Under the pieces are notes generated by a model. The model was not told the DNA's origin and did no database searches. It worked only from the letters and a program-made list of their open reading frames with translations. The position numbers were made by a program, and so were the translations under genes. Shown here piece by piece: positions 258-23,459 of a DNA stretch of 64,000 bases (the first letter of the stretch is position 1; each line of letters begins with the position of its first letter). Source of the DNA: a virus; IMG/VR virus record IMGVR_UViG_3300024239_000015, positions 1 through 64,000 of that record, one strand, 5' to 3'.

Positions 258-2357
258 TTACACTTTCATTGGGGTAGGTAACGTCGTGTGTGACAACACC
301 CGATGCTGGAATAACTCCATCTTTTTCTGATGGTAATTCCGATGCGGAGGAACATCCAAACACGTTAAGTAGAAGAACTTCGGTTTCAGCGTAGGCCACA
401 GTTTCAACTGACGTAACCGTCCGATGATCTGTAGGTTCGCTTGACTGCCACTCACCGCTGTGGTTAAAATACACACCGTTAAGTTAGCGATGTCAACCGC
501 CGTACCTGCACTTCCGTACGTAGAGACAGAGATATCCGACGTCATCAAAACCTCGTAGTCTTCATCACTCGTGTACTTCGAAACCGTTAAGTCCCCCACC
601 CGGTCATCAATGTATTTCGCAATTGCGTCACACATCTCCACCTGAGCAGCTAACAACAAACACCGCTGCCCTTCCACGTACTCTGCAATAAAGCCATGTT
701 TCACCACACTCCAGATTAACTCCAAGTACCGCTTGAGTCGCTCTGGTTTGCGCATGATCCATTTCTCATACTCAATGTGACTGTACTGCCCTTTCCCGTT
801 CTTAAAGTTCAGTCCCTTCCGTTCCAGTAACTGATACTCGATGTTTCGAACGTGCGTGTACTTGATATATGCACCGCCATTCTGCCTCAAGTGCAGTGGA
901 TACGCAATCTGATACATCTTGTCAATGAAAGGGTCGTCCGACTCTAGCGTCGCTGACAGATACAACGCTTTCGGGATATGCGTGTACAAGTCAATCTTAA
1001 AGTTCGCATGAAAGTTCTGGTGACACTCGTCCAGTATACGAAACCCTACCTTCAACTCTTTATAGATGTCTTCCGGCGGGACTAGGTACTTTGGCATTCC
1101 CAAGAACTTCGTCTGCTCGTACAGACGGATGTAGTCAGAGATCGTATCCGTTGTCACGAGGATCGCTTGACAGTTGTCTGGAATGGCGTCGTTATCTGCT
1201 TGTTCCAAAATAGAGTGCAACTGTTTCTGTCCACGGACCGTGATTAACTCCTGTGGTTTTAACCCATAGTTTTCAATCAAGTCCCCTTTCCACTTGTCGA
1301 AATACCGACCTAACACCATCACTAACAAACGTGTACCGATACGCTCGTTGGCTTTGAGCGCACACGCTGTGTTGTGAGTGACGACGTGATTTTCAAAGAC
1401 ATATAAGGCGTCTGGATGATCGACTTCGATACACGTAGCTGGTGCCTCGTGTGAATATTCAATCGAAACGATTCGTAGTCCCGGCGCGTCCGGATACACA
1501 CTTCCGGTAACGCTCCACAGCCCATCTTCTTCTTTTAGCGTTGCGACACCACCGGCTTGCCACACGAGTTGTTGGTGTGCGATCGCAGCAGCTTTAGAAG
1601 TACTTACGTAGTTAGCGTTATCGAGATGGTCTTCGCCTAATAAACCTCCCTTATAGAAAGGAATGTAGCAGCGATTGTGTTTTAACCAATCCCCTATAGT
1701 GTTTGTATCGATCACCGCTTCGCTGGAATCGTCCAGTAACACTTTCCAGAGATGCTCCCCACCCGCGTAAATAAAACGTCCGTCTTCGAATAACACGCGG
1801 TGTAATTTAGACACACCGTGCGGGTATACGTTAAGGACTTTCGTGTGGGTTCCATCAGGTGCGATTACGTACTCTCCAACTCGAATGTCACCCAATTGCT
1901 TCCAACCGCCAGGGATTTTGACTAGAGTTCTGTTATCTCCTAGCTTTCCCCTGCCGGTCTGAAGGGTTACAACCTTGGTGTGTCCTTCCTCAACGATGTA
2001 GTCGATGATGGGACCTTGGTCTTCTCGAGCCACCCAACTCTCAGGCATTTTCACTTGTGACGTCGCTAAAGGGTACAGCGGATGTTCGATAATCTCCAGC
2101 TGGTCTAAGGTGTAGCCTCGTTTGGTGAACTCCGCTAAAAGTTTGTCGTACTGGTGTTTATGAAACCGCCACTCTGCTTTGTCTTCAGAGCGCGCAGCAA
2201 ATACCCGTGTGGCAGTCCGTACAAAACGCTGTCGTACTTTCTCCATGGTGTACTGCACCAGACTGTAGGTAAAGTCTTTAAGCACCAAAGCGGCTGGTGC
2301 TTCGACTTTAGTCACCTTCACTCCATGACTGTACACATCTATTCTACAAATCTTCAC
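258..2357 (-). CDS. SF2 DNA/RNA helicase interrupted by an intein
   Basis: The 699-residue precursor is a superfamily 2 helicase. Extein motifs are Walker A TGRGK|TACAL (split by the intein), motif II DECH, motif III LSATLE, and a C-terminal region with motif V-like TAVDIANL and motif VI-like QIIGRLRQ. After removal of 191 residues the spliced protein would be about 508 residues, typical of UvsW-like phage helicases. The start is GTG at 2355-2357 with GGGAG upstream. It follows the beta' C-terminal RNA polymerase gene across a terminator. A role in DNA replication, recombination or transcription remodelling is inferred from family only. Confidence 0.88.
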   Translation of the reverse strand: MKICRIDVYSHGVKVTKVEAPAALVLKDFTYSLVQYTMEKVRQRFVRTATRVFAARSEDKAEWRFHKHQYDKLLAEFTKRGYTLDQLEIIEHPLYPLATSQVKMPESWVAREDQGPIIDYIVEEGHTKVVTLQTGRGKLGDNRTLVKIPGGWKQLGDIRVGEYVIAPDGTHTKVLNVYPHGVSKLHRVLFEDGRFIYAGGEHLWKVLLDDSSEAVIDTNTIGDWLKHNRCYIPFYKGGLLGEDHLDNANYVSTSKAAAIAHQQLVWQAGGVATLKEEDGLWSVTGSVYPDAPGLRIVSIEYSHEAPATCIEVDHPDALYVFENHVVTHNTACALKANERIGTRLLVMVLGRYFDKWKGDLIENYGLKPQELITVRGQKQLHSILEQADNDAIPDNCQAILVTTDTISDYIRLYEQTKFLGMPKYLVPPEDIYKELKVGFRILDECHQNFHANFKIDLYTHIPKALYLSATLESDDPFIDKMYQIAYPLHLRQNGGAYIKYTHVRNIEYQLLERKGLNFKNGKGQYSHIEYEKWIMRKPERLKRYLELIWSVVKHGFIAEYVEGQRCLLLAAQVEMCDAIAKYIDDRVGDLTVSKYTSDEDYEVLMTSDISVSTYGSAGTAVDIANLTVCILTTAVSGSQANLQIIGRLRQLKLWPTLKPKFFYLTCLDVPPHRNYHQKKMELFQHRVLSHTTLPTPMKV
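1371..1943 (-). mobile_element. Class 3-like mini-intein in helicase Walker A motif
   Basis: Precursor residues 139-329 separate GRGK from TACAL of the P-loop. The segment has splicing-block features: LVKIPGG and GEYVIAPDG near the N-terminus, GGEHLWKV, and the C-terminal LYVFENHVVTHN followed by Thr. The first residue is not Cys, Ser or Thr but Leu. Trp204, Cys309 (ATCIEV) and Thr330 match the W-C-T triad of class 3 inteins, which use an internal Cys for the first step. No intact LAGLIDADG or HNH motif is visible; LVWQAGGVA may be a remnant of a homing endonuclease. Confidence 0.85.
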
Positions 2358-2383
2358 GTGTTGCTCCCACTAAAGACGAAAAG

Positions 2384-2415
2384 CACAGGGGGAGGTTTTG
2401 TCACCTCCCCCTGTG
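2384..2415 (-). terminator. Strong hairpin terminator between beta' gene and helicase
   Basis: A perfect 13-bp inverted repeat (CACAGGGGGAGGT and its complement, 6-base loop) lies after the beta' C-terminal gene and is followed on the minus strand by a T-rich run. Confidence 0.8.
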
Positions 2416-2426
2416 TGACGGTTGAG

Positions 2427-4406
2427 TTACACAGTCGGGTTGATGATTGGATCAAACGGATGCGGAGTGCGTAATCGTCTCAAGAACGCTGCAGGGTCTG
2501 AGAACACTGCATGCTGCTCTTGGTACGCTGCTTGTGCAGCCAAACTACGCCCACCAATGATTTCGCTGTACCGACCGAATTGTGCTTCCCCTCCTGGTAA
2601 AGGTAAACGGAAGTCTCCTCGGCTTTTCGAACGAATCATCGTTGCTTTGAGAATCACCTCTAACAACGCAATGTTGATCACAAACTTACCGCTGACCAAG
2701 TCATAGAAATCAGCCAACGCAATTGCAAGGCTGTTGTGGTCTGAAAGATCCAAGTGTTCTTTTGCTTGGTTGTCTCCATTGCCTTTGATCAATGACTTGA
2801 CGTCTGCCATAAACTCAATCATACTGGATTGTTTCTTCGGTAGTACAAACAACGGTTGGTTGTGTGTCCAGCCTGCTAAACTCACCTTGATGTACTTCGC
2901 ATCGGTTTCGTACCCTACGCGAGCAATGTGCTCTAAGAACTCTTTGCTGAAACTAGAGAGACGAGACCCCATACAGACTGACACAGGTGTGGTTTCTCCA
3001 AACCCGTCGTCGTCTTCTGTAATAAACTGCACAGAAGAGAGTTGGGAGATTCGAGAGATACTCAAGTCGGAGATATCACACAACGCGATGTCATTTAAGT
3101 TAGGGACTTCTTCTCGTAGCACAGCAATCGTTGTGCGTTTGGGTTTGATCTTCGAGGAAATCGCTATACTGACCCGATCAGGTAACACAGCGATGTAGGG
3201 TTCGTCGTAGGTAGGTACGATAAACTCATCCACGAGCGCACTACCGTTTAAGTGTTTAGTAGACAGTACGTTTTGGGACACTGCAGAGCAGAGCTCAATA
3301 ACCGCCATATGACCTAAACTGGTTTCTTCATCGATACTCAGACCAATGTCCCCTAAGCACGCTAGACACACTCCTTTAGGGGAGATGTGTTTACATTGCA
3401 TAGGAGAGCGTAGAAAGATCGTGGTATTGACTAAGTGCGTTTCGTTCCCTAAGATTCGTTTGATACTACCGTCTGCAAGTACGTGGTTTTTACCTGCAAG
3501 AGAAGGGAGGTGTTTCTCTTTGACTGTCCAAGGAACGTAGTCTGTGGAACCACAGTCGTAATTCACAACGTGGTCGATGATGTTCCCAACCAGCTGTAGT
3601 TCACGGTTGAAATACTCAACATCCGCCAGTGGATCTTTCTGTAAGAACAGAGCAAGTGATGCAGCTCTGGATTCCATCATCGAATCCGCCAGAGTCACTA
3701 AGCCGTGTGCAAACCCATACACGATCGGTTTGTTAAACACGTTGTAACTGATGTCTTGTAGAATCCCCCGTGGACCAAACACCTGCTGGATTTGTCCAAT
3801 CTTTAAAAGAGCAGACTTGATCCCTTCCGCTACACGGTTTCCTCGTAACTCCGTGGGAGAGTTCAGAGTTTTCCCTACCACCTTATACACGTCACGGATA
3901 TGCATGTCCGCTTGTTCGCACAGCTCAGGGTCGTCCCAGTTCATGGATTGAATGCGTTCGTTTGCGGCGTAGATGTCTGGATGCTCTAACACTTCCAGAT
4001 AATCCAACGCACTGACAGACGTTACGTACGCACCCAACAACCCATTGCAGTCGTTCACTAACGTGTTGACTTGTTCGTACGCTTCTTTGCGTAAGTCCAA
4101 TACATGCACACGCCCTTGCGTGTAGTCGTGGATATCAAACATCACTCGCTCAAACAACCGTGGTGTGGTTTGAGCAGTGAGTCGTTCATTCCCAATGTGG
4201 TGACGTTTACAGATGGGTACCTCAGGCGCTCGTTTGAAGAAACTCCAGTGGTACCACGAGTAGATCGTCTCACGGATTGTCGTGGTTAACAACCCATCGT
4301 CAAAGTGGACGACACAGGGTAAGTTCTCCCCATCAATCGCTTGTGGAAGTGCCCAGATCTGCCAGCGTGTGTACTGCAGTAAATCCCGTACGTTGTACTC
4401 TAGCAT
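2427..4406 (-). CDS. RNA polymerase beta' subunit, C-terminal half
   Basis: This 659-residue protein matches the C-terminal half of multisubunit RNA polymerase beta'. GPRGILQD (residues 211-218), the following KPIVYGFAHGL and SRAASLAL resemble the cellular region leading into the bridge helix. YDCGSTDY (283-290) resembles the DDCGT element. RSPMQC..GVCLACLG (333-351) is the four-Cys zinc site. LSTKHLNGSA (381-390) sits where the trigger loop lies. It starts at ATG with AGGAAA upstream and overlaps the stop of the beta gene by 7 bases, so the two are probably co-translated. phiKZ-type phages encode such split subunits for their virion and non-virion polymerases; which enzyme this serves is not decided by sequence. 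Confidence 0.85.
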   Translation of the reverse strand: MLEYNVRDLLQYTRWQIWALPQAIDGENLPCVVHFDDGLLTTTIRETIYSWYHWSFFKRAPEVPICKRHHIGNERLTAQTTPRLFERVMFDIHDYTQGRVHVLDLRKEAYEQVNTLVNDCNGLLGAYVTSVSALDYLEVLEHPDIYAANERIQSMNWDDPELCEQADMHIRDVYKVVGKTLNSPTELRGNRVAEGIKSALLKIGQIQQVFGPRGILQDISYNVFNKPIVYGFAHGLVTLADSMMESRAASLALFLQKDPLADVEYFNRELQLVGNIIDHVVNYDCGSTDYVPWTVKEKHLPSLAGKNHVLADGSIKRILGNETHLVNTTIFLRSPMQCKHISPKGVCLACLGDIGLSIDEETSLGHMAVIELCSAVSQNVLSTKHLNGSALVDEFIVPTYDEPYIAVLPDRVSIAISSKIKPKRTTIAVLREEVPNLNDIALCDISDLSISRISQLSSVQFITEDDDGFGETTPVSVCMGSRLSSFSKEFLEHIARVGYETDAKYIKVSLAGWTHNQPLFVLPKKQSSMIEFMADVKSLIKGNGDNQAKEHLDLSDHNSLAIALADFYDLVSGKFVINIALLEVILKATMIRSKSRGDFRLPLPGGEAQFGRYSEIIGGRSLAAQAAYQEQHAVFSDPAAFLRRLRTPHPFDPIINPTV

Positions 4407-7000
4407 TTCTGTTTCCTCGCTTCTTGACGTTTACGCGTCGTAAAACGACGACCACTACATTCCATCACGTGATTCACAAACAAGTAACTCCGACCGTTCC
4501 CACGTTTGACTACGTGTTTGTCCCACACGGCTTGGATGTCCATCGGGTTGTCAGCCGTCAGTAGTTTATACGCAATCGCTTTTTGTGCTGCAGGAGAGTT
4601 TTGCATCTCCAAGAAGTCCGCTGTGGCTTGAGGTCCAATCTTTGCAACCAGCAAACGGATTTCTGCTTCACCCAGTATCCGTGTCGGGTTTTCACGCCAC
4701 GGTTTACTGTTACGATCGTTCTGCGTGAGTTTCGCTAAGATCCCATAGTGCTGACGTTTGAAGCTGCTGCCCGCTGCAGCGTCATCGCCAATCTTCTCTA
4801 ACAACATCACGTACATACTACCAATCAACACAGGGTCTTTCGTCGTGTACTCTTTCCCAGCGTAATCCTTATACGTCACAGGACCGATAGGAATAGGAAA
4901 CGACTCTCTGAGCTGTTGGATTTGTGGAGCACCAATGTTAGGACTGTGGGGTGGGAGCAACAACCTCACCACAGGCTGGCTGACCGCAAACTCCGGATGG
5001 CGATGTTGGTGAATCTGCTCATTTAACTCTTTGAGCTTTTCAGCTGGACTGAGTTTGAAGCTTAAGTACTCCTCATATTGCAACGGAGAAGCAACCGAGT
5101 AATACGCCATCAAATACCGCCACGCATCGTCCACACGTCCTCGATCCATAAACTTGATCAAGTTCTGTCGCACCCACCAACTGGTTGCGTTGACGTAATG
5201 TTCGTAAATAATACCCGGATTCATTCGTTTGGTGACCGAGTCGCCACAGAAAACCAGATGTGCTCTACGTCCCCATTGGTCTATAGGCATATCTTCCCAT
5301 TTTCTGATATCTACCAATACCCCTTTCTTTTTGTCCAGTTATGTCGCTACCATAACCCGGTGTGCTAAGACACCCGCCCTTACTTTCATAAGGGAACAGA
5401 CTATATCAATCCCACAGCGGTACGGTTTATGTACCCTGGTTGGGCCTCTCGTTTGGGGCGGCCAATCGCTTGCCGCTCTACAGGGTGGTCCAGTCCCTTA
5501 GTCGTTGAACACATCCCATACCTGTAAATAGGGTTAGGGACTTCGATGCGGATTGCCCCGACGTTACTACAGTAACGCTCTATGTCTCTTTTACCATACC
5601 TGAGTAGTTAGTTCAGCCACCGTGGAGTGATGTAAACATCACTCGATCACTGTTTCCAGCACGGCTTGGTGTACATAGTTTCTAGGGTGTTCCCGTCAGT
5701 TAGATGAGTGGCATCTAAGAATTACTTCCTAGACGAACAAAGCCTTACCGCTCATTGAGCCATAAGTTCCGTTACCAAGTAAGCCTACAGCTTTTGAACC
5801 TACATTCGGTGTGTACTTGTAGGTGTATTTGATCTTTACCCACCAATCATCCAGAGGTGCAGCACGATACGTTCTCGTTACGATCGCTTTGGCATTCTTT
5901 GGATTATTCGGTAGGGCTTCTAGTGCAAGGAAACGTTCCAGTTCAGGTGTGGTTTGCACCCGTTCCGGTTGGTACTTTCCATTTCCTATACGCCGTACGT
6001 AATCTCGATACGTTTGGATGACCTCACTGTAAAACTCATCCTGCGCAGTTTGATACCGCTGTGGTTGAGTTTCCATCCCCACTGGCGTCGGTGGGGTTTG
6101 GTTTGTAAAGTCATGGAGTACTTCGATGTCAGTGACGATCGCACCACCTTTAGCGTACACGCGTTTATCGAACTTGTAGTCGATTTCCCGTAACGCTTTA
6201 AGCGACATTTGACATGGTCCTAAGAGTTCATCGTAAGGTCGCATGACAAACAGTAACCCATCGTCTCTTATTTTCTCCCCTACGTCTGGATACGGTTTGT
6301 AATTCTCATCGTCCCCATAAAGGTTTAACAAGAAGAACTTTTTACCATAACTACAGACAGCCTCTCCAAACGCCGTAGCGCGATTGGCTTTACACCACGT
6401 ATCGGAGGCAACGATACCGTCCTCGATGATCTCTGGGATCGTCATGAACGCAATATCGGTTTCTACCCCGTACATATACTCCCCATCGTCAGTGACGTTG
6501 GGAGAGTCTGCAAACACGTATCCTTTAGGGATAATGTCCCCTGGTTTAAATTTGTTAAAGCTGTTCTGTAACTGATCCGCTCTGTATTTAAACCCGAAGG
6601 TTTGGTGCGCACAGTGGTGTGTACGTAAAAGCACCATCCCTAAGGAATGGATTCCATTTTGTAGTTTCTCCATCTCCTCGTAGATCAGGATCGTCGTGGG
6701 GTTACTGCGAAATGGAAAGCCTCCTAGTTTCTTTGGAAACTTATGGATTACTTTTAACAACCGTCCGGTGGTAGGCATCGTTTGTTTAAAAGTAGTTTGT
6801 GCGTATTCAAACTCGTGTCCTGCGATCAAGTTAGGTCGCGTAGGACAATCCACCACTAAACTTTGTGCCTGATGACCTCCCCGCATGGATAAACGCGGGG
6901 AAGACGCACAGGCGATATAGTTTACTAAATCGGTGGTGTTCCCGAGCAATTGGGGATGCAGCTCGTTTTTAGACCTGTGTACCAAGGGTCTCAAAATCAT
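4400..7000 (-). CDS. RNA polymerase beta subunit, C-terminal half, split by a group I intron
   Basis: Two open frames form one gene. Exon 1 is about 7000-5739 and exon 2 about 5321-4400, giving roughly 727 residues after splicing in frame. The N-terminus (SSPRLSMRGGHQAQS and following) aligns with the beta stretch DANRALMGSNMQRQAVPL. The exon 1 end (VGSKAVGLLGNG) matches GDKMAGRHGNKG. Exon 2 begins near WEDMPID and continues CGDSVTKRMNPG, matching EDMPYD and GVPSRMNIGQ. Neither frame alone carries a complete conserved block. ATG at 6998-7000 has AAGGAAGAG upstream. The equivalent phiKZ beta gene (71-73) is also intron-split. A promoter-like motif lies about 100 bases upstream. Confidence 0.85.
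5322..5738 (-). mobile_element. Group I intron in RNA polymerase beta gene, no ORF
   Basis: The 417-base interval between the two beta exons has no long ORF. It carries group I core signals on the minus strand: GCTGGAAACAG, AACGTCGGGGCAATCCGCA (P4-P6 side), and GTTCAACGACTA (P7 side, 5499-5510). I place the 5' splice site after GCTTT, because GAAGT about 10 bases into the intron can pair with it as guide sequence, and the 3' site after a G at 5322. This keeps frame. Exact junctions are inferred. Confidence 0.8.
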
Positions 7001-13810: not shown

Positions 13811-14934
13811 TGCAAGTCCTCCAGTAATTGTACCACACGTAACTGTAGCTCAGCCGTAACACCTGTACGCGTCATACGTTCTTTCACTAAGTGAGGTAAG
13901 TTTGTTGCGGTGAGTGACGTGCCACGAAATACAGGAACGTCTGTAGGGTCTACACGACTCTCTGTTAGCTCTTCTTCACGTACCCCTTTGGTGTCCCAAT
14001 AGAACTGAGGAAACTCTTGTCGTAAAGCTGCTACGCCCCTTAGAATCGAGTCTGTACTACTGGCTTTGACACGTAAGTAACTACGAGCAGGAGTGCTCTG
14101 TGCGATTTCACGTATCTCGTCATACGCCGCTTCTAACGACAGACCGATGCAGTCAATCGTTCGGTACACTTTCGCTTCTGCGTTCTCTACAAACGCCCAC
14201 CCTTTACGAGAGCCTCTCACCCACACTCGTAAGTGTCCTTTCGGTGCTTCTTCGTTATGGGCGAGTCGGTTGTGGGAACCCGCCACGAGGATGTTCCCAC
14301 GGTGTGAGTGTTGGTGGATATGCCCACAGAGTATGTACTGCCTAGCTAACGGCTGCCACTCACTGCTACTGTGCGTAGCGTGTGGTACATGCGGTGGGAG
14401 TTGATACTCAAACGCGCCATGCATGAAAATGAAATCCACTTGCGCTAAGCCGTGAGACTCTAAAAGGCGCACCGCTTGACGGTGTGTATCCGCTGGATCG
14501 ATGCTCCACTCATCCGGTACGTATAAAACCGTCATCCCGTTCGGGAGGGTTTCGATTTCTAACTGCTCTGCGTAATAGAGCTCACAGTCTATTCGCAGTA
14601 GACGGTTTAATGTCACTAAAAGTCTGGACTGTTTCCAATCGTGGCTCGGTGTACCTTCCAGTACCCGTAACCAAATGTCGTGTTCTTTGCAGTAGCGGAG
14701 TAACCATTCAAAAAACTCATGAATGTCAGTCACACAGTGCGCACTTAATTGCAAGTCACGGTCAAACAAGTCCCCTTGAAACGCAATACAACTCACCAGC
14801 TTGGGGTTCTCAGCAAGGATTGCTTTCTTTACCCCAGCGATGATCTCTTCCGTCGGAGTCCGGTGGTGTCCTAAGTGGACGTCGTGAAAACTTAATAACG
14901 TGAATCCCTCACGCCCAATCGTCGTCTGTGTCAT
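13795..14934 (-). CDS. SbcD/Mre11-like metallophosphoesterase (nuclease subunit)
   Basis: A 379-residue calcineurin-like phosphoesterase. Visible metal-binding motifs in order: DVHLGHH (18-24), GDLFDR (49-54), GTPSHDW in place of GNHD, FMHGAF, and GHIHQHS. After these comes a C-terminal domain of about 130 residues, as in SbcD, Mre11 and T4 gp47, which process DNA ends with an SbcC/gp46 partner. No SbcC-like ATPase is visible in the window. The N-terminus overlaps the preceding gene by 26 bases and lacks a clear ribosome binding site, suggesting translational coupling. Confidence 0.85.
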   Translation of the reverse strand: MTQTTIGREGFTLLSFHDVHLGHHRTPTEEIIAGVKKAILAENPKLVSCIAFQGDLFDRDLQLSAHCVTDIHEFFEWLLRYCKEHDIWLRVLEGTPSHDWKQSRLLVTLNRLLRIDCELYYAEQLEIETLPNGMTVLYVPDEWSIDPADTHRQAVRLLESHGLAQVDFIFMHGAFEYQLPPHVPHATHSSSEWQPLARQYILCGHIHQHSHRGNILVAGSHNRLAHNEEAPKGHLRVWVRGSRKGWAFVENAEAKVYRTIDCIGLSLEAAYDEIREIAQSTPARSYLRVKASSTDSILRGVAALRQEFPQFYWDTKGVREEELTESRVDPTDVPVFRGTSLTATNLPHLVKERMTRTGVTAELQLRVVQLLEDLQCEVS

Positions 14935-15469
14935 CGTCAGTCAGCCATGTCTGTGACAACGCCTGTGTGCTCACGCTCGACTCCGTCGTCCCAGTGACGA
15001 TTCCATACCGTTGCAAAATCGCAGCCCACGCTTTGGAGTGGTCTGGAGTTTGCTCTCTACGGGTGGTGTAAAGCCCCTGTAAGGTTTTAGGAAGGGCGAT
15101 ATCCATCGAAAGGTTAAACGCTCTGGCTTTACTTTGGAGTTGGTCTACGACCGTAGAGATGCTTTGTCTCTCGTCGTATTTCGTGTAGGTAGTAGGCGTT
15201 GCAAATAAAGGAGGTACAGTAAATAAGAGCTGCCCGTTTTTTACAACGTGTACAGGTTTGAATTGTCCTCCTTGGAACCCTCCTCCTGCTAACTCTACCC
15301 AAGGCGTTAAGTCGACTTTCTGAGTCGCTGTGAGTAAAGGTAAGTACTTACTGACAAACACATGCTCTTCTACACTTACGATTCGACTTCGGTTTTCATT
15401 AATGAGCGTATCCATCGCTTCATTCATTTCTATCAACCCTAAGTCTTCTAAACTACGTGCGTTAGCCAT
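14909..15469 (-). CDS. Hypothetical protein, 186 residues
   Basis: Soluble protein with an acidic C-terminus (TDDDTDDDWA) and a Gly-rich segment LAGGGFQGGQF near residue 65. No motif is recognised. ATG at 15467-15469 has GAGGTGATCA upstream and overlaps the preceding stop by 8 bases, placing it in an operon with 15462-15863 and the phosphoesterase. Confidence 0.65.
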   Translation of the reverse strand: MANARSLEDLGLIEMNEAMDTLINENRSRIVSVEEHVFVSKYLPLLTATQKVDLTPWVELAGGGFQGGQFKPVHVVKNGQLLFTVPPLFATPTTYTKYDERQSISTVVDQLQSKARAFNLSMDIALPKTLQGLYTTRREQTPDHSKAWAAILQRYGIVTGTTESSVSTQALSQTWLTDDDTDDDWA

Positions 15470-15863
15470 TGATCACCTCAATCAAGTCCTGTAGTTTCCC
15501 ATTACTGAGTTCTAACACTTTTGATAAGTCATACACGATCCCGTCTCGTTGAACTTGGATCGACAAGTTGATGTTATACCGTGCTGCTTCTATGTTATTA
15601 GGATACGTCACCGCTGTGCTCACACTGACTGTTGTAAACCAACGTGACAAATACGACGTCAGTACAGAGTCCAGTTGCGTACTAAACGCTTCTGGGTCTT
15701 GTCCATACTCACCCACTAAATACGCCATACTACTGATACTTCCAGCATACAGCTCAGACTTCGAATACTTTGCGGTAAGAAAGTCAGCCATGCACTGATC
15801 CAACGTTTCAATCGTTCCTGTCAACCACCCTTTTCCACCTAGGTTTATACCTACTGCTACCAT
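15462..15863 (-). CDS. Hypothetical small protein, possible virion component
   Basis: 133 residues with a C-terminal beta pattern (YNINLSIQVQRDGIVYDL) that recalls small baseplate or tail proteins of jumbo phages, but this is only an impression. The ATG at 15861-15863 is preferred over an upstream GTG because GGAGGAAGG precedes it. A rho-independent terminator separates it from the gene ending at 15932. Confidence 0.65.
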   Translation of the reverse strand: MVAVGINLGGKGWLTGTIETLDQCMADFLTAKYSKSELYAGSISSMAYLVGEYGQDPEAFSTQLDSVLTSYLSRWFTTVSVSTAVTYPNNIEAARYNINLSIQVQRDGIVYDLSKVLELSNGKLQDLIEVING

Positions 15864-15897
15864 ACCTTCCTCCACGTCATTCCACCAAAAAAAAAAG

Positions 15898-15917
15898 AAA
15901 GAGCCCGAAGGCTCTTT
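15898..15917 (-). terminator. Rho-independent terminator downstream of the gene ending at 15932
   Basis: AAAGAGCC-TTCG-GGCTCTTT with a UUCG-type tetraloop is followed on the minus strand by CTTTTTTTTTT. The strongest classical terminator in the window. Confidence 0.92.
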
Positions 15918-15931
15918 GCTTTTTTATTCAT

Positions 15932-16540
15932 TTACCCCAATGCCCCATTGAGCTCATCGGTGGTGTCAATCCCTTCTGCAAATCCAGCTACCATAACATC
16001 GATACTGTACCGAATGTCTAGTTTCTGTTGCGTACTTAAAGGAATCTCGTCGTCGTCCCCTACGACACAAACCCGTACTAAAGGTCCTTCGTCGTCAAAG
16101 TTGACTTGTCCACTGTAAACACGACAGTAGTCATCGTGGTCCCAACGAGACACACCCGGCTGTAGGTCGACATACCGCTCTCCAAACCCATGACAGCGTT
16201 GGTCGTGGTACACGTCCCGGATCTCAGGAGCCACCATCAACCACCGTACCATTTCTTGTGGAGCGTTCTGTACCTCTTCATACGTTGACAACCGATGGAT
16301 ACTGTTGACTTGTGTGAAGCTTTCCGTCCGAGCACGTAACGCGTCTGCAATCACTAACGCGTGTGAGTCAACCAAAGTTGACGCGTGTGCAATCGCTTGG
16401 TCGTACTGAGCCCGTCCAAGCTCAGTTAACCCACTGACGTAATCGTGTCGTTGTGTCTCTACGTACTGGAGTACGTTTTGATGTGGACGTCCGTAAGCCG
16501 CAGCATGTTGCAGCGCACGGCCTCCTTCTACCACTCGCAT
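15932..16540 (-). CDS. Hypothetical protein downstream of RNA polymerase beta' gene
   Basis: 202 residues, mixed helix and strand, with acidic loops (CVVGDDDEIPL) and HGFGERYVDLQPG. No family recognised. Its ATG follows the beta' stop directly and its GGAGGT site lies inside the last beta' codons, so it is translationally coupled to the polymerase subunit. A virion protein is possible by analogy with genes next to phiKZ gene 80. Confidence 0.65.
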   Translation of the reverse strand: MRVVEGGRALQHAAAYGRPHQNVLQYVETQRHDYVSGLTELGRAQYDQAIAHASTLVDSHALVIADALRARTESFTQVNSIHRLSTYEEVQNAPQEMVRWLMVAPEIRDVYHDQRCHGFGERYVDLQPGVSRWDHDDYCRVYSGQVNFDDEGPLVRVCVVGDDDEIPLSTQQKLDIRYSIDVMVAGFAEGIDTTDELNGALG

Positions 16541-19500
16541 TTATACCTCCAGGTTTTTAAATTGCGCCAGTTGGTGGTCTGGGTCATACCGTTCTATAGG
16601 CAACTCAAACCGTTTTGCTGACGCTTCATCTCGATACAGCCAGTTAGCTATCGTAGCAATAGTTGCACTGTGTAGTGCAATTACACGACTGACTTTACGA
16701 GGCGTACCGTGGTCTAATACCCCTTTGTGAGGCGCTAGTTTCCTAAGCGCTTCAAATTGCTCCCTGTCTAATGCGACAAGGGCATTTAATGCATCACCGT
16801 CAAACCATGTATGTTCGGAGAGTTCGCAAGGCTCTCCCGCGTCTCACGCTTCACAGCGTGGGTACGCAGCTGTAGGCTTTCCCTACAGTGCAGACTATAC
16901 CATCTACTCTCCTTTATAGAAGAGCAGCACCACATTTCGAAGTACCTTGAGTTTTCACTCTAGCTTGTACCCCTACTCCCCGCTACGGGACAGTCGTTGA
17001 ACACACTCCGTAATCTGTGTAAACAAACCCTTAGGAGCTTCGCTGCTGATTGACCATTTTACCTTTCGGTTTCTTTTTCATCCCCTTAGCGCCGTTTCCG
17101 GTTTCTTTTCAGCATAGGGCATCTCTACGATTGTTTCTGGGTTTCCCCACCTGACGTTCAGAAGACTCGCGCCGTCCTAGTGATCTCCGTGTACCGCACT
17201 TGCTGCCAAGTACTGTAGTTTACTGTTTCCAGCACGGTGTTGGTTGCAGAGCTTTAGGCTTTTCCAGCGTTTAGTGGTGTACGCATCCACCCTCGCGGAT
17301 AGATGGGACTTTAACATACTAACTAACGTTAACGTATTCGATTTGATATATTGACCATCTACCCCCGTTGATGGACATTCCCCTTTGTACCGTATTTCTT
17401 CGAGCTCCCACTTCCGCACAAAAGTCCAGAGTCGACGCGTAGTGCTTAACTTCGCCGGTCAACTTATTGGTTACTTTTATCGGAAAGGCCGGACGTCGCG
17501 AGTTAGGTGACATTTTCTTAGGCTTTCTCTTAACGACAGTTCCCACAGAACCTTCCTTCTCGTCAAGATGTTTTGCTAGGAATAAACCCCTGACTCTAGT
17601 CCCCCTATTTATCGACTGCCATATCGAACTCGTAGACACATTGAAGTATCTGGCAGCTTCCCCGTAGCTCTCGAAGATATAAACTTCTTTTCCATCCTTA
17701 GAAGTCAATACAACTTCGCGCGGGGCACCATTTGGTTTCTCGCCGACATTACTGGAATCGATTTGTTTCCAACTCGAGTCCGCGTAACGCACGTTGTATT
17801 TTTTCAAGAACGGAGTTTGCTGTGTGGAGTTCAGATAAACGTGTAACCTACTCTGGGACGCTTTCAGCCACGCGGCTGCTTTGTTTAAACCCAAGAACGA
17901 ATTAACTTCCTGCGTGGTTAAGTCTAAGACCTCTACAGGACGATTATCTTTCTTCAGCCCTAACTCGTAAGCGTGCCATAAGTTTCTTTTCCTATCGACC
18001 CATTCTAGGTTACTGGCTCTGTTGTTAAATTTATCGCCATCGATGTGATTCGTGACGTAGTGGTCGTGTTCTTTGTGATGGAACGTTTCGGCGACAAGAC
18101 GATGGTGTGTCATCGTGCCTTTACCGCGTATGTTCATCACGTTATACCCGAAATGTGAGTTGAAGTACGCTAAGGGACAATAATCTAACAAAACATCAAT
18201 TACTATCCCTTCTTCGGAAATCACAATCCGAGGAATCTGGGGGTGGTGGTAATACTTAGGGTATCTTTTCGATTCTATCAAACCTTCGCGCATCTTTCAT
18301 TTCCTTCTCATGCTAGTCGCATAAGATAGATGCATGTTAAGTTAATTAATGTTATTTCATCGCAGTTCATGCCGGTTATACAGTGAGTGGATACACTGAC
18401 TGAGTTTATAGCCGGGTCTTTCTTTATCCTGCTGATAAAGAATTGCTGCATGGATAGTTCATGCAGTGTGGGCTTTGCTTTCACGTAGGGCGCGACACCT
18501 ACGCAGTTCTTAAAAGAACGTCCCCAGAATTACCTGGGATAAAAGACTATATCTTCATCCGTTATAAGTAGGGATAACGGAGCTCCTCGTTTCGCATAGT
18601 TTTAAACTACTTAGCGCTAGGCTAACCACCTGACCTTTCGATCGCTTGCGGGCTACTCTACTCCCTTCTCTTTCTTATTGCAAGAAAGCGGTTTCGATAG
18701 TCGTTGAACACATTCCGTAATGTATACTGCTGATACACCCTTAGGAACTTCGCTGCTGATAGACCCAGACTCTTTGTTTTCAAACCGTCACGTAGACCGT
18801 TTCCAGTTGCGTTGTGGTAAAGAGTTTTAGATAGATCGTCCCAGCAGTTAGAGGAGTTTGGCGTTACTGTTACCAGTAAAGGAAACCTAAGTCAATTTCG
18901 ATGGAAAATACACGGGATACCACGGATCTCTCGATGTTCGTGGGGTTGTGTACCGATGGGGTTATAAACACCAACGACGTAAGGGGAGTCGCTGATTAAC
19001 TCATCAAAGAGTGCATCCAGCTCTGGGTTGTAAGTGTGAGCGTTTTCAGACAGGAATTTCTCAATCTGATTCGGACCCCACCCACGTTTCAAAAGCTTAT
19101 TGGTGAGCTGTGCTTGCAATACAGCAATCGCAGTCGTCCACGGAATCTCCAGCTCTGAGTATAAGTGCCATCCTGTCAAGGAGTTCACGACGTTACGGAA
19201 GCTGTAGTTTGCACGTGTACCGAAGATGTGTTTACGGAACCATCCCTTCTTCCCACCTAGAATGTTCTTGTACAGGTTGTTGTAGTACGCACTGAGTTGT
19301 ACCACACACACCGTTGCACGACTCTCTGCTTTCTTTAACCGTACGTTCTGGTACGCTTCCCCTAAGTCGAGAATGGTGTAGGCTGCATCAATCGCGTCTA
19401 CCATTCCGAAGTCGGCGTAGGTACCCACCGCTGTTTTCTCTGTAATAAACGCAATCTTGTTTGGGATTGGTAGATATGGAGTAAACACCAAGTCACGGTT

Positions 19501-20097
19501 CTCACGCACCAGCTCCATGACGTTGTCTTTGCGATCGGGTGAGCCTGAGTACAATCGGTTATCCACGAGGATACTTAAGTACAGGTCAAAGTGATCAAAG
19601 AAGTTATTCAACCCCCGTTGAAACCCATACGCTTCCAGTTGTTCTCCAAACGCACTATGACCACTCGGGATACGGTAGTAGGGGTCACATAACCACCGCA
19701 TGATACTGATCCCGTTCTTCTTAAACAGTTGGTCTAAGATGTACCAGATTGTTGGGTTAATCAACGCTTTCACGCCCCGTGGTGCGCGTATCCATAACGT
19801 AGACTCGATTGGACGCTCGAGAATACTCATGGGAACGGTACCACACAGCTCACAGCGCAGTTTAATGCTTGCTGCATACTGCCCTGTGGTATGCCCACAC
19901 CCACACGACGGGAGGACGCTGACTTGGTCTCCATCGTACTCTGTCCGTATTAAATTGGACAGAAATTGTTTTGCTTGCACGGTACGTGCGTCGATGTCAT
20001 TGATACACACCGGTGGCACGGACTGTGCGCCGTACATTTCCACGTAATCGACGAGTTCTAGATAGACGCCATCGTCGTTTTCGTTTGTTTCTACCAC
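16541..20097 (-). CDS. RNA polymerase beta' subunit, N-terminal half, three exons
   Basis: I reconstruct three exons: 20097-18895 (401 codons), 18472-18359 (38 codons) and 16804-16541 (87 codons plus stop), giving 526 residues. Exon 1 has a zinc site (CGCGH near 65, CELC near 82) and KKGWFRKHIFGTRANYS (282-298), matching KQGRFRQNLLGKRVDYS. It ends GIPCIFHRN. Exon 2 gives PTLHELSMQQF, matching APTLHRLGIQAF, and ends MNCD. Exon 3 begins FDGDALN, restoring NCDFDGD, the Mg-binding NADFDGD active site. The start is GTG with AGGGAG upstream. Without splicing, translation would stop after FHRN before the catalytic motif. It complements the C-terminal half at 2427 or a second polymerase outside the window. 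Confidence 0.88.
16805..18358 (-). mobile_element. Group I intron 2 of beta' gene, carrying an HNH endonuclease
   Basis: A 1554-base intron between the codons for NCD and FDGD. It follows a U (GAT) and ends in G, as group I introns do. Core signals on the minus strand are GTGCTGGAAACAG near 17230, CAGCAGCGAAGCTCCTAAGGG near 17030-17050, and GTTCAACGACTG at 16991-17002. The HNH gene occupies the 5' two thirds and the ribozyme core lies after it. The guide sequence for the 5' site was not identified. Confidence 0.87.
17319..18293 (-). CDS. HNH homing endonuclease (intron-encoded)
   Basis: 324 residues. The N-terminal part (RIVISEEGIVID) resembles a NUMOD4 motif. The nuclease follows as MTHHRLVAETFH with NHIDGDKFNNRASNLEWV, the classic HNH arrangement. 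Three further DNA-reading repeats of NUMOD1/IENR1 type follow, for example FESYGEAARYFNVSTSSIWQSI and ASTLDFCAEVGARRNTV. The ATG has AAGGAAATGAAAG upstream. It would cut intronless alleles at the FDGD codons to spread intron 2. The frame looks intact. Confidence 0.92.
   Translation of the reverse strand: MREGLIESKRYPKYYHHPQIPRIVISEEGIVIDVLLDYCPLAYFNSHFGYNVMNIRGKGTMTHHRLVAETFHHKEHDHYVTNHIDGDKFNNRASNLEWVDRKRNLWHAYELGLKKDNRPVEVLDLTTQEVNSFLGLNKAAAWLKASQSRLHVYLNSTQQTPFLKKYNVRYADSSWKQIDSSNVGEKPNGAPREVVLTSKDGKEVYIFESYGEAARYFNVSTSSIWQSINRGTRVRGLFLAKHLDEKEGSVGTVVKRKPKKMSPNSRRPAFPIKVTNKLTGEVKHYASTLDFCAEVGARRNTVQRGMSINGGRWSIYQIEYVNVS
18473..18894 (-). mobile_element. Group I intron 1 of beta' gene, no ORF
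   Basis: A 422-base intron between FHRN and PTLH. The 5' exon end GAAAU can pair with GUUUC 10 bases into the intron as guide sequence, with the expected U-G at the splice site. The intron ends in G before CCCACACTG. Core signals are AACTGGAAACGG, CAGCAGCGAAGTTCCTAAGGG (near 18737-18757) and GTTCAACGACTA (18698-18709). The core closely resembles that of intron 2. Confidence 0.88.
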
Positions 20098-20159
20098 AGT
20101 GACTCCCTGAGTGAATTGAAACGAATTTTAAAGAAAAGAAAAGGAAAAGCGGCAAAGAA

Positions 20160-20184
20160 AACAGGGAGCGGAGTGCTCCCTGTT
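20160..20184 (-). terminator. Terminator after 598-residue protein gene
   Basis: AACAGGGAGC and GCTCCCTGTT form a 10-bp stem with loop ACTCC, followed on the minus strand by TTCTTT. Confidence 0.85.
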
Positions 20185-20206
20185 TCTTCGTCACGAGGAG
20201 TAAAGC

Positions 20207-22003
20207 TTACCAGCGAGACTGGAAGCTTTGACCGTTGTTAAACGTCGGTGCGTTGTAGCCAGTGCTGAATGCATTTGCAGACAGACCGCCAGACAACACG
20301 TCTACGTTTGCACGAGGTACGACGCGAGTTTCGTTTTGTGTGTACTCTGGAGTCAGAGCCGCACCTACTTCACCCAACGCAGTCACCAGGGCTAACAGAA
20401 CGCGATCGTTTAACATCACTTCAGTAGCGTAGTCAGTGATCACCACGTCACCTAAGTATTTCTTCTGCAGCTGACACAGTACAGTCAGACGTTCTTCGGT
20501 AGAGGCACGACGTGGATCGTAACACTCATCGAAACGGTAGACTTGGGTTAAGTCTTTGTCACCTTCCATAGCAGAGATTGCCATGTGGTCGAAGTCACGG
20601 ATGTCGGACTTCACAGAGTGGCCATTGGTGTAGTAACCTAACGGAACCCGTGTAGGGACGACTTTACCGATAGGACCAGAACCTAAGCGCTGGAACACTT
20701 CAGAGAACTTACCAGAGGTCAGGTTATCACACGCTTGTGTGAAACGCTTCACTGCCGTGTCAGAACCCGCACAGGCGTCACGTAACAGACTCAGTAACCA
20801 GGTGTCTTCACCTGTTTCTGGGATGTGTACTACGACCGCTACTTCTGGGTGAACGAATTCAGCGAAGAAGCGGTTTACGTCGAACGTAGGTTCGTTAGCA
20901 CCCACACGAGTACCTGCTGGCAGTAAACCTTCAGCGGCCATTTCAGCAGACAGCACGTCTAAGCTACGCTCAGCGCCATGGCGGTGGAACGTGTTGATGT
21001 ACTGACGGCTACGGATTGGTTCAGCAGCTAACGCTAATGCCAACACCATGTGCTCAGGCGTGGTCACACCGGCGTTCAGTGACAGATCGGTGACAACCAT
21101 ACGCGCTTGGAAGTGCTGAGTAGTAGCACGAGCTGGCTGGTATGGCGTTTCGATCATGCGTGGGCCTACGTAGACTAAGTCTAAGAAGGCAGACAGCTGA
21201 GCCATGTTACGAGATTGACCCGCTAACAAACCACCATTGGTGTTGGTGTTCACCAACGCAACAGAAGCAGTGATGTCACGACGTACGGGTAAACCACCTG
21301 CTGTTTTAGCAGGAGCTGACGCTAACTCTACACGGCTACGTAATTGGAAGCCTGCTTGGTTTGCACCTTTCATAGAAACGATGTACTGACCTGCTTCCTG
21401 TAACGCTGCTTTTAAGTTGTACTGTAAAGCAGACATTGCACGGACTAACACGTCGCGTACGGCTTTGGCATCGCCTGGAGCAGTTTCACGGGGTACTACA
21501 CTGAAGCCTACGAATGACGCCGTTGGCGGTAAACCTGCTAACGCTTTAGACACCAGTGGTTGGAACTGAGGATCACGTGTTAAGTCACCTACGGTTTGTG
21601 GGTACAGTAACTCACGTTGACCTAAGTTGATGCTGTCGTTGCGTTTGGCTAACATCGGCAGTTCTTCTGCAGTACCTGCTAATAACATCAGGTACACCGC
21701 AACTTGCTTTTTGTACTCACCCACGATCGCTACAGCTGACACTGGGATCAGAGTCGTTTGTTGATCCAGTTCCAGCATGGTGAACTTGAAGTTGTCACGG
21801 TTGGCAGAGTCTACCATTGGCTTCAGAGTTTCTAAGTAGCCAGACAGCACTTGACTGTGTGGGCTTAACGGCATCACACCGCTGGTTTGTGCTGCAAACA
21901 TAGCAGCTAAGTTTTGAGCGACTGGTTGTTCACCAGTGAACGTTTGTTGTTGTTCTGCTTGTGCCTGAGTCGACTTCTGGCTGGCAGTGTTCAGTTCTTT
22001 CAT
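20207..22003 (-). CDS. Probable abundant early protein; candidate phage-nucleus shell (chimallin)
   Basis: 598 residues. A Gln-rich disordered N-terminus (about 1-45) precedes a large globular region and a flexible C-terminal tail ending NGQSFQSRW. There is no membrane segment or enzymatic motif. The unit is monocistronic, with its own promoter-like motif (22066-22101) and strong terminator, and the ATG has AAAGGAAG upstream, suggesting high early expression. Size, flexible tails and context in a PhuZ-encoding phage fit the nuclear shell protein ChmA (about 600-630 residues), but I cannot show homology by eye. A capsid or other virion protein is the alternative. Confidence 0.4.
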   Translation of the reverse strand: MKELNTASQKSTQAQAEQQQTFTGEQPVAQNLAAMFAAQTSGVMPLSPHSQVLSGYLETLKPMVDSANRDNFKFTMLELDQQTTLIPVSAVAIVGEYKKQVAVYLMLLAGTAEELPMLAKRNDSINLGQRELLYPQTVGDLTRDPQFQPLVSKALAGLPPTASFVGFSVVPRETAPGDAKAVRDVLVRAMSALQYNLKAALQEAGQYIVSMKGANQAGFQLRSRVELASAPAKTAGGLPVRRDITASVALVNTNTNGGLLAGQSRNMAQLSAFLDLVYVGPRMIETPYQPARATTQHFQARMVVTDLSLNAGVTTPEHMVLALALAAEPIRSRQYINTFHRHGAERSLDVLSAEMAAEGLLPAGTRVGANEPTFDVNRFFAEFVHPEVAVVVHIPETGEDTWLLSLLRDACAGSDTAVKRFTQACDNLTSGKFSEVFQRLGSGPIGKVVPTRVPLGYYTNGHSVKSDIRDFDHMAISAMEGDKDLTQVYRFDECYDPRRASTEERLTVLCQLQKKYLGDVVITDYATEVMLNDRVLLALVTALGEVGAALTPEYTQNETRVVPRANVDVLSGGLSANAFSTGYNAPTFNNGQSFQSRW

Positions 22004-22272: not shown

Positions 22273-23397
22273 GTGCTGACTTTATTTTTGTCTCCGAGTG
22301 TAAAGGCTTACGGAGGCGTCCGTCTCGGACAGTATCCGTATATAGAAAGACGATTCAGTGAAAACTTTCGAACGGTAAGGGACCATTACCGGACGAGAAA
22401 CCTAGCGGTGAAGAACACACACTTCCTCGTGACTGCATTAGACTCTTTACCGATTGCAGATACAGGTTCACCACATCGCTTTGCAGACGTAGCTGCATCC
22501 TTAGCTCCCAACTTACTGAATCGGTTTGGAGTAGGAAGTGACCGTTACGTAGGAAAGTTTCAAGCCACCCAACGGTTCTTTGGAAGTAACGTCTACGAGT
22601 ACCTGTACTTAACACAAAGTTACTACGACGAGTTTACACTCAAACCGAGCGAGTGGATGTACTTACGTCCTATCCAAGTGCTGAGCCATCCTCGTACAGA
22701 TTTTGATTACTCTATCCTCGCAGGACAGATTACCACCGAAGAATCAGGGCACGCGTTTATTACCATTGACTTTGGTTTACTGGCATTCCAGTACCACTGT
22801 TGGCGTAAAGAACACTTGAGGAAAAACGGTGGAGTCTTTTTGGGGTCAGTACGACAGTTTCTAGTGCAATACCCATTAGCGAACTTAATCCCAAGTTACA
22901 ACAACATCGCATGGTACAACACGGTGTTTCGTAGTGCCATAGGGTACACGCCTGCGTTATCAGTCAATCGTCCGCCTCTCGCGATTCCTGACTCGTACAC
23001 CTACGTGAGGGAAACTGCAGCACAGTTTCACGCAAACTTAACGCGTACAGGACGAGCTTTGCAAGCAGAAGCGTTACTCCAGTGGATACCGAGTGTGGAC
23101 ATGTATGCAAGTAATGCAGCTGAGGACACCTACTGTTACCCTACAAGAGTGCACTCCACTCCCGCAGAAGTCGCGCGATGGTTTTGTCAACTCGATTGGT
23201 GTGAAACGGTTTTTGGAATTCTGTTTCAAAACGAAGCGATCAAGAACAACCGTGCGTTAGTGAACGAGTACTTAAAAGACTACCGTCGGTTAGTGAATAC
23301 AAAACTGTTACAGGACGTTGCGATGCCGTTAGATGCACGCGACTACTTAAACAGAAAGTTAGACACGATACTCGCGTACATAACGGAGGGAGCGTAG
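22273..23397 (+). CDS. Hypothetical protein, 374 residues
   Basis: Rich in Tyr, Phe and Arg, without repeats or membrane segments; includes RRFSENFRTVRDHYRTRNL and a C-terminal helical part. GTG at 22273 is chosen as start because AAGGAG sits 6 bases upstream; the upstream ATGs at 22222 and 22252 have no such site. It is the first of two plus-strand genes, and its stop lies inside a terminator hairpin. A structural role is possible but unproven. Confidence 0.68.
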   Translation: MLTLFLSPSVKAYGGVRLGQYPYIERRFSENFRTVRDHYRTRNLAVKNTHFLVTALDSLPIADTGSPHRFADVAASLAPNLLNRFGVGSDRYVGKFQATQRFFGSNVYEYLYLTQSYYDEFTLKPSEWMYLRPIQVLSHPRTDFDYSILAGQITTEESGHAFITIDFGLLAFQYHCWRKEHLRKNGGVFLGSVRQFLVQYPLANLIPSYNNIAWYNTVFRSAIGYTPALSVNRPPLAIPDSYTYVRETAAQFHANLTRTGRALQAEALLQWIPSVDMYASNAAEDTYCYPTRVHSTPAEVARWFCQLDWCETVFGILFQNEAIKNNRALVNEYLKDYRRLVNTKLLQDVAMPLDARDYLNRKLDTILAYITEGA

Positions 23398-23407
23398 TGC
23401 TCCCTCC
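23385..23407 (+). terminator. Hairpin overlapping the stop codon, followed by TTATG
   Basis: GGAGGGAGC and GCTCCCTCC form a 9-bp stem with loop GTAGT that includes the last codons of the upstream gene. CATAA precedes it and TTATGC follows. Confidence 0.72.
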
Positions 23408-23459
23408 TTATGCTTGTCATTTTATGGACTGTTTAGAATTTAACCAAAAGGGTGTGTGT

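Follow-up and report, generated by a model that had tools for sequence, protein, structure and literature searches.

Exons of the interrupted polymerase gene

In the first 64 kb (64,000 nucleotides, hereafter the window) of a 233,377-base viral record (IMG/VR IMGVR_UViG_3300024239_000015), an RNA polymerase subunit gene, when read as one frame, breaks off ahead of its active-site codons. In the unspliced RNA, the first intron codon after FHRN is a stop. An earlier, sequence-only reading of the locus (the initial annotation) had proposed that two introns, with a small exon hidden between them, separate the codons of the catalytic motif. The exons are as follows; throughout, a slash within a motif marks an intron position.

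18895..20097, minus strand: exon 1, 1203 nt, residues 1-401, GTG start, ends FHRN (AAU/), covered by the phrog_2987 and 7ogp_A matches of the joined protein
18359..18472, minus strand: exon 2, 114 nt, 38 codons, PTLHELSMQQF to MNCD, profile match 6e-15 and 7ogp_A alignment
16541..16804, minus strand: exon 3, 264 nt, starts FDGD, 87 codons plus stop, profile match 6e-18

A profile was built from 73 intronless homologs and compared with every stop-to-stop segment of 25 aa or longer in 15501-21000, 138 in total. Good scores were obtained for just three of them, namely exon 1 (7e-132), exon 2 (6e-15) and exon 3 (6e-18). Exon 2 corresponds to profile positions 373-419 and exon 3 to 420-481, and these matches abut exactly. 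Each exon length is a multiple of 3, and the joined exons give 526 aa with a terminal stop only and with NCDFDGD at residues 437-443. Among the Mg-binding aspartates, D439 comes from exon 2, and D441 and D443 come from exon 3; this one-plus-two division would be repaired only by RNA splicing.

Database matches of the joined protein are phrog_2987 (RNA polymerase beta subunit; 1.9e-145 over residues 10-498), PF00623 (above cut-off) and the solved phiKZ non-virion RNA polymerase subunit (7ogp_A; residues 9-497, E 2.3e-71), and the alignment with 7ogp_A continues across both exon junctions. As the full spliced protein is homologous, including the DxDGD motif, the interrupted gene is, by homology, the beta' N-terminal subunit of a non-virion RNA polymerase (nvRNAP), homologous to phiKZ gp55. 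The claims of the initial annotation on this point agree with these data: its coordinates and frames, with the stop after FHRN before the active site, are exact to the base; the 38-codon exon at 18472-18359 has its own profile match with flanking matches that abut; the exon coordinates place intron 2 inside the Mg-binding motif codons (NCD/FDGD) and intron 1 38 codons upstream; and the beta' identity of the 526-residue conceptual protein was borne out by all three comparisons.

The gene lies directly downstream of a chimallin gene, an order shared with phiKZ, Eowyn and LucasX.

20207-22003, minus strand: chimallin gene, PF25677 (Chimallin_Phikzvirus) 2.1e-19, phrog_4795 6e-49

Judged by this chimallin gene, the phage is a member of the Chimalliviridae, the nucleus-forming jumbo phages. 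A second IMG/VR contig holds an identical 11.7-kb stretch of the locus, which makes a base error unlikely; an assembly error was rejected on the same ground. Megablast of window positions 14000-21500 against the phage collection gave no match, and a first scan of viral contigs with a single protein query returned the same virus and one weak relative only.

Ribozyme cores and an HNH endonuclease

The intervals between the exons contain the following features:

18473..18894, minus strand: intron 1, group I, 422 nt, no ORF, ends in G, RF00028 47.2 bits
16805..18358, minus strand: intron 2, group I, 1554 nt, inserted at NCD/FDGD, ends in G, RF00028 29.3 bits
17319..18293, minus strand: HNH homing endonuclease ORF in intron 2, 324 aa, HNH_3 and NUMOD1

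The Rfam model RF00028 matched intron 1 at 18903-18523 (47.2 bits, E 6.8e-9) and intron 2 at 17221-16870 (29.3 bits, E 0.0016). As both scores lie below the 50-bit gathering score, the core pairings were tested directly. Intron 1 forms a 5-bp P1 (GAAAU with GUUUC, 18899-18895 and 18886-18882), P3 (CUCCUC with GAGGAG, 18856-18851 and 18588-18583), P4 (GCUGG with UCAGC, 18845-18841 and 18759-18755) and P7 (GACUA with UAGUC, 18702-18698 and 18549-18545). In intron 2, P4 pairs GCUGG with UCAGC (17268-17264 and 17049-17045) and P7 pairs GACUG with UAGUC (16995-16991 and 16897-16893). The low score of this intron probably arises because Rfam misregisters P3 across a long insertion; a better P3 pairs CACCAC with GUGGUG (17279-17274 and 16933-16928). 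Thus the three helices of a group I core, P3, P4 and P7, form in both introns, each of which is preceded by U and has G as its last base.

Taken singly, the P3 complementarity of each intron was not significant against shuffled controls, and covariation at a fixed position across introns was therefore used instead. In a set of 13 introns drawn from this phage and its relatives, 98.6% of P3, P4 and P7 cells were paired compared with 88.8% in shuffles. Some of the P3 strands had been picked partly by complementarity, which favours the structure, although their distance from P4 was always fixed and P8 always adjoined them. Two-sided changes were found in 9 of 16 pairs, and none of 500 shuffles reached the observed pairing or covariation. 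That both intervals are group I introns is well supported by these comparisons, and self-splicing with a guanosine cofactor is predicted. An intein was rejected because of the stop codons in the intervals.

The probable guide of intron 2, GUCCCA at 17309-17304, is weak, with five of six positions paired and one internal mismatch. Its GUCC start is common to the same-site introns of two other loci, L102 and L025 (L025A), which supports the assignment. As a separate observation, the TGC codon of the window's NCD extends pairing with this guide, which may be coincidence.

The ORF of intron 2 combines an HNH fold motif with a DNA-binding NUMOD domain (HNH_3 and NUMOD1; PF13392 2.6e-6, PF07453 9.1e-11, both above cut-off), as in HNH homing endonucleases, and is 25% identical to the phiKZ intron ORF gp56 (E 3e-21). 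It lies inside the intron upstream of P3 and is flanked by a UUAACAU-AUGUUAA stem, and probably sits in the P1 loop. The initial annotation had called both intervals group I introns, had tied this reading to P3-P7 pairing and had expected a gene caller to report an orphan endonuclease; the RF00028 matches, although below the gathering score, the P3 and P7 helices of both introns, P4 and the domains of the ORF are in line with all three statements.

Evidence bearing on the proposed splicing at the motif

Evidence on splicing comes from phiKZ, whose gene 55/56/56.1 region (NC_004629) resembles the window in carrying the same gene with the same catalytic motif, chimallin directly upstream, and, ahead of the ribozyme core, an intron ORF from the same HNH family. 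In contrast to the window, with introns at FHRN/PTL and NCD/FDGD, phiKZ has one intron, at N/ADFDGD, two codons away; the exon proteins of the two phages are 32% identical. In the phiKZ annotation, gene 55 ends with KAPN followed by intron codons, and gene 56.1 starts inside the intron and reads on into ADFDGD. The calculated mass of gp55 is 55.7 kDa spliced and 47.9 kDa unspliced, and the purified protein was given as 56 kDa by Yakunina et al. (PMC4666361). In the cryo-EM paper on the phiKZ nvRNAP, the motif is numbered 417-DFDGD-421 (PMC8287921), which is the spliced numbering. The text of neither paper mentions an intron. Mass and residue numbering together provide experimental support for splicing in this cousin of the window's gene. 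An empty site is also available: KpGz_1 and the intronless Eowyn are colinear in DNA except for an exact 479-nt insertion at AAT/GCT, with about 90% and 84% identity on its two sides. Every boundary fits the rule of U before the intron and G at its end.

Overall, we propose a model in which two group I introns, one of them with an HNH gene, occupy phase-0 boundaries in or near the NADFDGD codons of the nvRNAP beta' N gene, splicing restores the subunit, and the HNH enzyme spreads intron 2. We give this reading a probability of about 0.95; the exons, their boundaries, the ribozyme helices, the HNH ORF and the repeated insertions are observed, and splicing, nuclease activity and mobility in this phage are predicted from the sequence. 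After transcription, each intron would excise itself by guanosine attack after the 5'-exon U and ligation after the terminal G. FHRN would thereby be joined to PTL and NCD to FDGD, restoring the three Mg-binding aspartates of a polymerase on which the phage's transcription in the nucleus depends. The HNH enzyme would cut or nick the motif of co-infecting relatives that lack the intron, allowing intron 2 to spread, and, by analogy with phiPA3 gp210 (PMC11620839), might harm a co-infecting phage. In this model, active-site codons are a favoured and safe target: any change in their sequence would destroy polymerase function, and the U needed at the 5' splice site is available at third codon positions.

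One variant, which we consider unlikely, is that splicing leaves exon 2 out of some transcripts, giving the active 526-aa protein and a 488-aa form (FHRN-FDGD) that could be regulatory, dominant-negative or splicing noise. Skipping would keep the frame, given two phase-0 introns and an exon 2 of 114 nt, and exon skipping between group I introns was reported for phages SIOphi and Twort (PMC11878797). However, the frame is kept automatically, as all sites are phase 0, which the codon-end U alone explains, and the shorter product, without 38 residues including D439 of the Mg motif, should be inactive. Far less credible is that there is no splicing and that the three frames yield separate polypeptides that assemble, like the naturally split beta/beta' subunits of jumbo phages. 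RNAP subunits of chimalliviruses are split at other places (PMC7598289), but the breaks here interrupt the catalytic loop of the double-psi beta-barrel, no plausible in-frame start exists for exon 2, the stretch is uninterrupted in sister phages, both intervals hold ribozyme cores, and phiKZ gp55 was found at its spliced mass. A decaying, inactive copy, with the subunit supplied by another intact gene, is just as improbable: although the frame is broken in the DNA and the motif reads NCDFDGD and not NADFDGD, a form found in three intron-bearing genes (window 18367-18359, L039 and L064), NCDFDGD also occurs in 3 of the 73 intronless homologs, the exons are stop-free and colinear with the profile, and the 86-kb paralog is a member of the virion RNAP family (phrog_2986) rather than a second nvRNAP copy.

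The same layout in related phages

The two spliced introns that we favour for the window have counterparts in isolates. Read with the phiKZ coding sequence as template, the published Phikzvirus isolates PA_ZH1, Churi and ANB1 carry introns at FHRN/PTL and N/A, fnug and OMKO1 at FHRN/PTL and D/Q, and KEN49 has three, at FHRN/PTL, N/A and D/Q. The intron 1 boundary is thus identical to that of the window and the later introns lie in the NADFDGD codons, whereas the second site is N/A or D/Q in the isolates and D/F in the window, and the intron sequences differ. The window anatomy is a further example, with another second site, of a layout that is present in isolates and apparently undescribed in the literature searched. 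The uniqueness that the initial annotation had implied was overstated, given the HNH-bearing intron of phiKZ in the same motif and the two-intron isolates. Its expectation that gene callers would report a truncated subunit was correct: GenBank annotation of phiKZ, LucasX, fnug and others gives a truncated subunit and separate ORFs, and the genes of the six isolates appear as truncated or hypothetical proteins, in KEN49 as scattered hypothetical proteins. Many public genomes list essential RNAP genes of this family wrongly, as truncated ORFs.

Comparable arrangements are known elsewhere. In phiPA3, the intron-encoded HNH enzyme gp210 cuts the RNAP gene of a co-infecting phage (Birkholz 2024, PMC11620839). 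It resembles the window's ORF in that an HNH gene lies in a putative group I intron by conserved aspartates of a multisubunit RNAP gene in a nucleus-forming phage; it differs in residing in the virion RNAP beta gene, with activity tested, whereas the window's lies in beta' and is known from sequence. Phages of the Bastillevirinae are known to have small exons lying between group I introns (PMC11878797). In these phages and in Twort, as in the window, a single essential gene contains multiple group I introns around a small internal exon, but the interrupted genes are others and splicing was demonstrated by RNA sequencing.

An insertion hot spot with micro-exons

The locus is another case of a known intron type, and its interest lies in the insertion hot spot, the involvement of both polymerases and the micro-exons. 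We surveyed IMG/VR and annotated phages, with loci partly selected by using the intact motif as bait, because of which prevalence is underestimated. In nucleus-forming phages, introns in or beside the NADFDGD codons were found at five or more phase-0 boundaries within 24 bp of these codons (loci are given by L numbers):

KA/PNADFDGD: LucasX, L083
N/ADFDGD: phiKZ, KpGz_1; also PA_ZH1, Churi, ANB1, KEN49
NxD/FDGD: window, L025, L102
NxDFDG/D: L025, L038, L039, L040, L064, L083, L108
NADFDGD/Q: PA7 (L087); also fnug, OMKO1, KEN49

Over the whole gene, insertion sites number at least six, and five of these fall within 24 bp of the codons for the active site; in the surveyed loci, no intron was seen elsewhere in the gene apart from FHRN/PTL. 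Each site lies at phase 0, directly behind a codon whose last base is T. Nearly all surveyed introns have an RF00028 match; that of L039 had none at E 0.01, with core strings present by eye. A pattern scan for G/D introns recovered three contigs that were already known and no others. In three loci, two introns enclose a very short putative exon:

L025, 6234-7615: two introns in the gp55 homolog (RF00028 69.5 and 89.1 bits), with a putative 9-nt exon TTTGACGGT (FDG) between them
L083, 6237-8594: two introns (RF00028 68.7 and 83.7 bits), with a putative 21-nt exon (PNADFDG) between them
KEN49 (L122), 1636-3884: putative 18-nt exon GCTGATTTTGACGGAGAT (ADFDGD), flanked on each side by an RF00028 match of 76.1 bits

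We infer these micro-exons of 9, 18 and 21 nt, those of L025 and L083 from homology and the U-to-G rule only. More tentatively, the codons of the Mg-binding loop may be contested by mobile introns throughout the nucleus-forming phages, such that neighbours at N/A, D/F, G/D and D/Q compete for, and may mask, each other's homing targets, the intron set could act as both weapon and immunity in co-infection, and ribozymes might splice exons down to 9 nt (FDG). The sites, at least six in number, form a natural series to test why homing introns choose active sites, and also suit tests of micro-exon splicing by ribozymes and of mutual endonuclease blocking by neighbouring introns.

Further group I introns in the same genome

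The 233-kb genome has six RF00028 matches, including, besides introns 1 and 2:

5377..5767 (Rfam span), minus strand: third group I intron of the window, splits the RNAP subunit gene phrog_3295, RF00028 53.8 bits
record 86051-86357 (locus L093, about 2986-3495), minus strand: intron of the virion RNAP beta' paralog (phrog_2986), RF00028, 510 nt
record 174242-174571 (locus L094), plus strand: intron of a DnaB-like helicase gene (phrog_3213), RF00028
record 204017-204368 (locus L095), plus strand: intron of a DNA polymerase gene (phrog_3011), RF00028

The ORFs on the two sides of the third window intron, 7000-5729 and 5317-4400, match phrog_3295 positions 5-403 and 408-696. In the virion RNAP beta' paralog, the exons join at LGAD/NDGD, a boundary homologous to NCD/FDGD of the window; at the corresponding virion RNAP site of Erwinia phage RAY, GGDYDGD is uninterrupted. 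Over 200 nt, the helicase intron and the 3' part of intron 2 share 77.5% identity, suggesting that introns have been exchanged or have spread within this genome. Separately, the window has a sub-threshold Rfam match to STnc290 at 23380-23444 on the minus strand (32.4 bits against a cut-off of 60), most likely a terminator hairpin.
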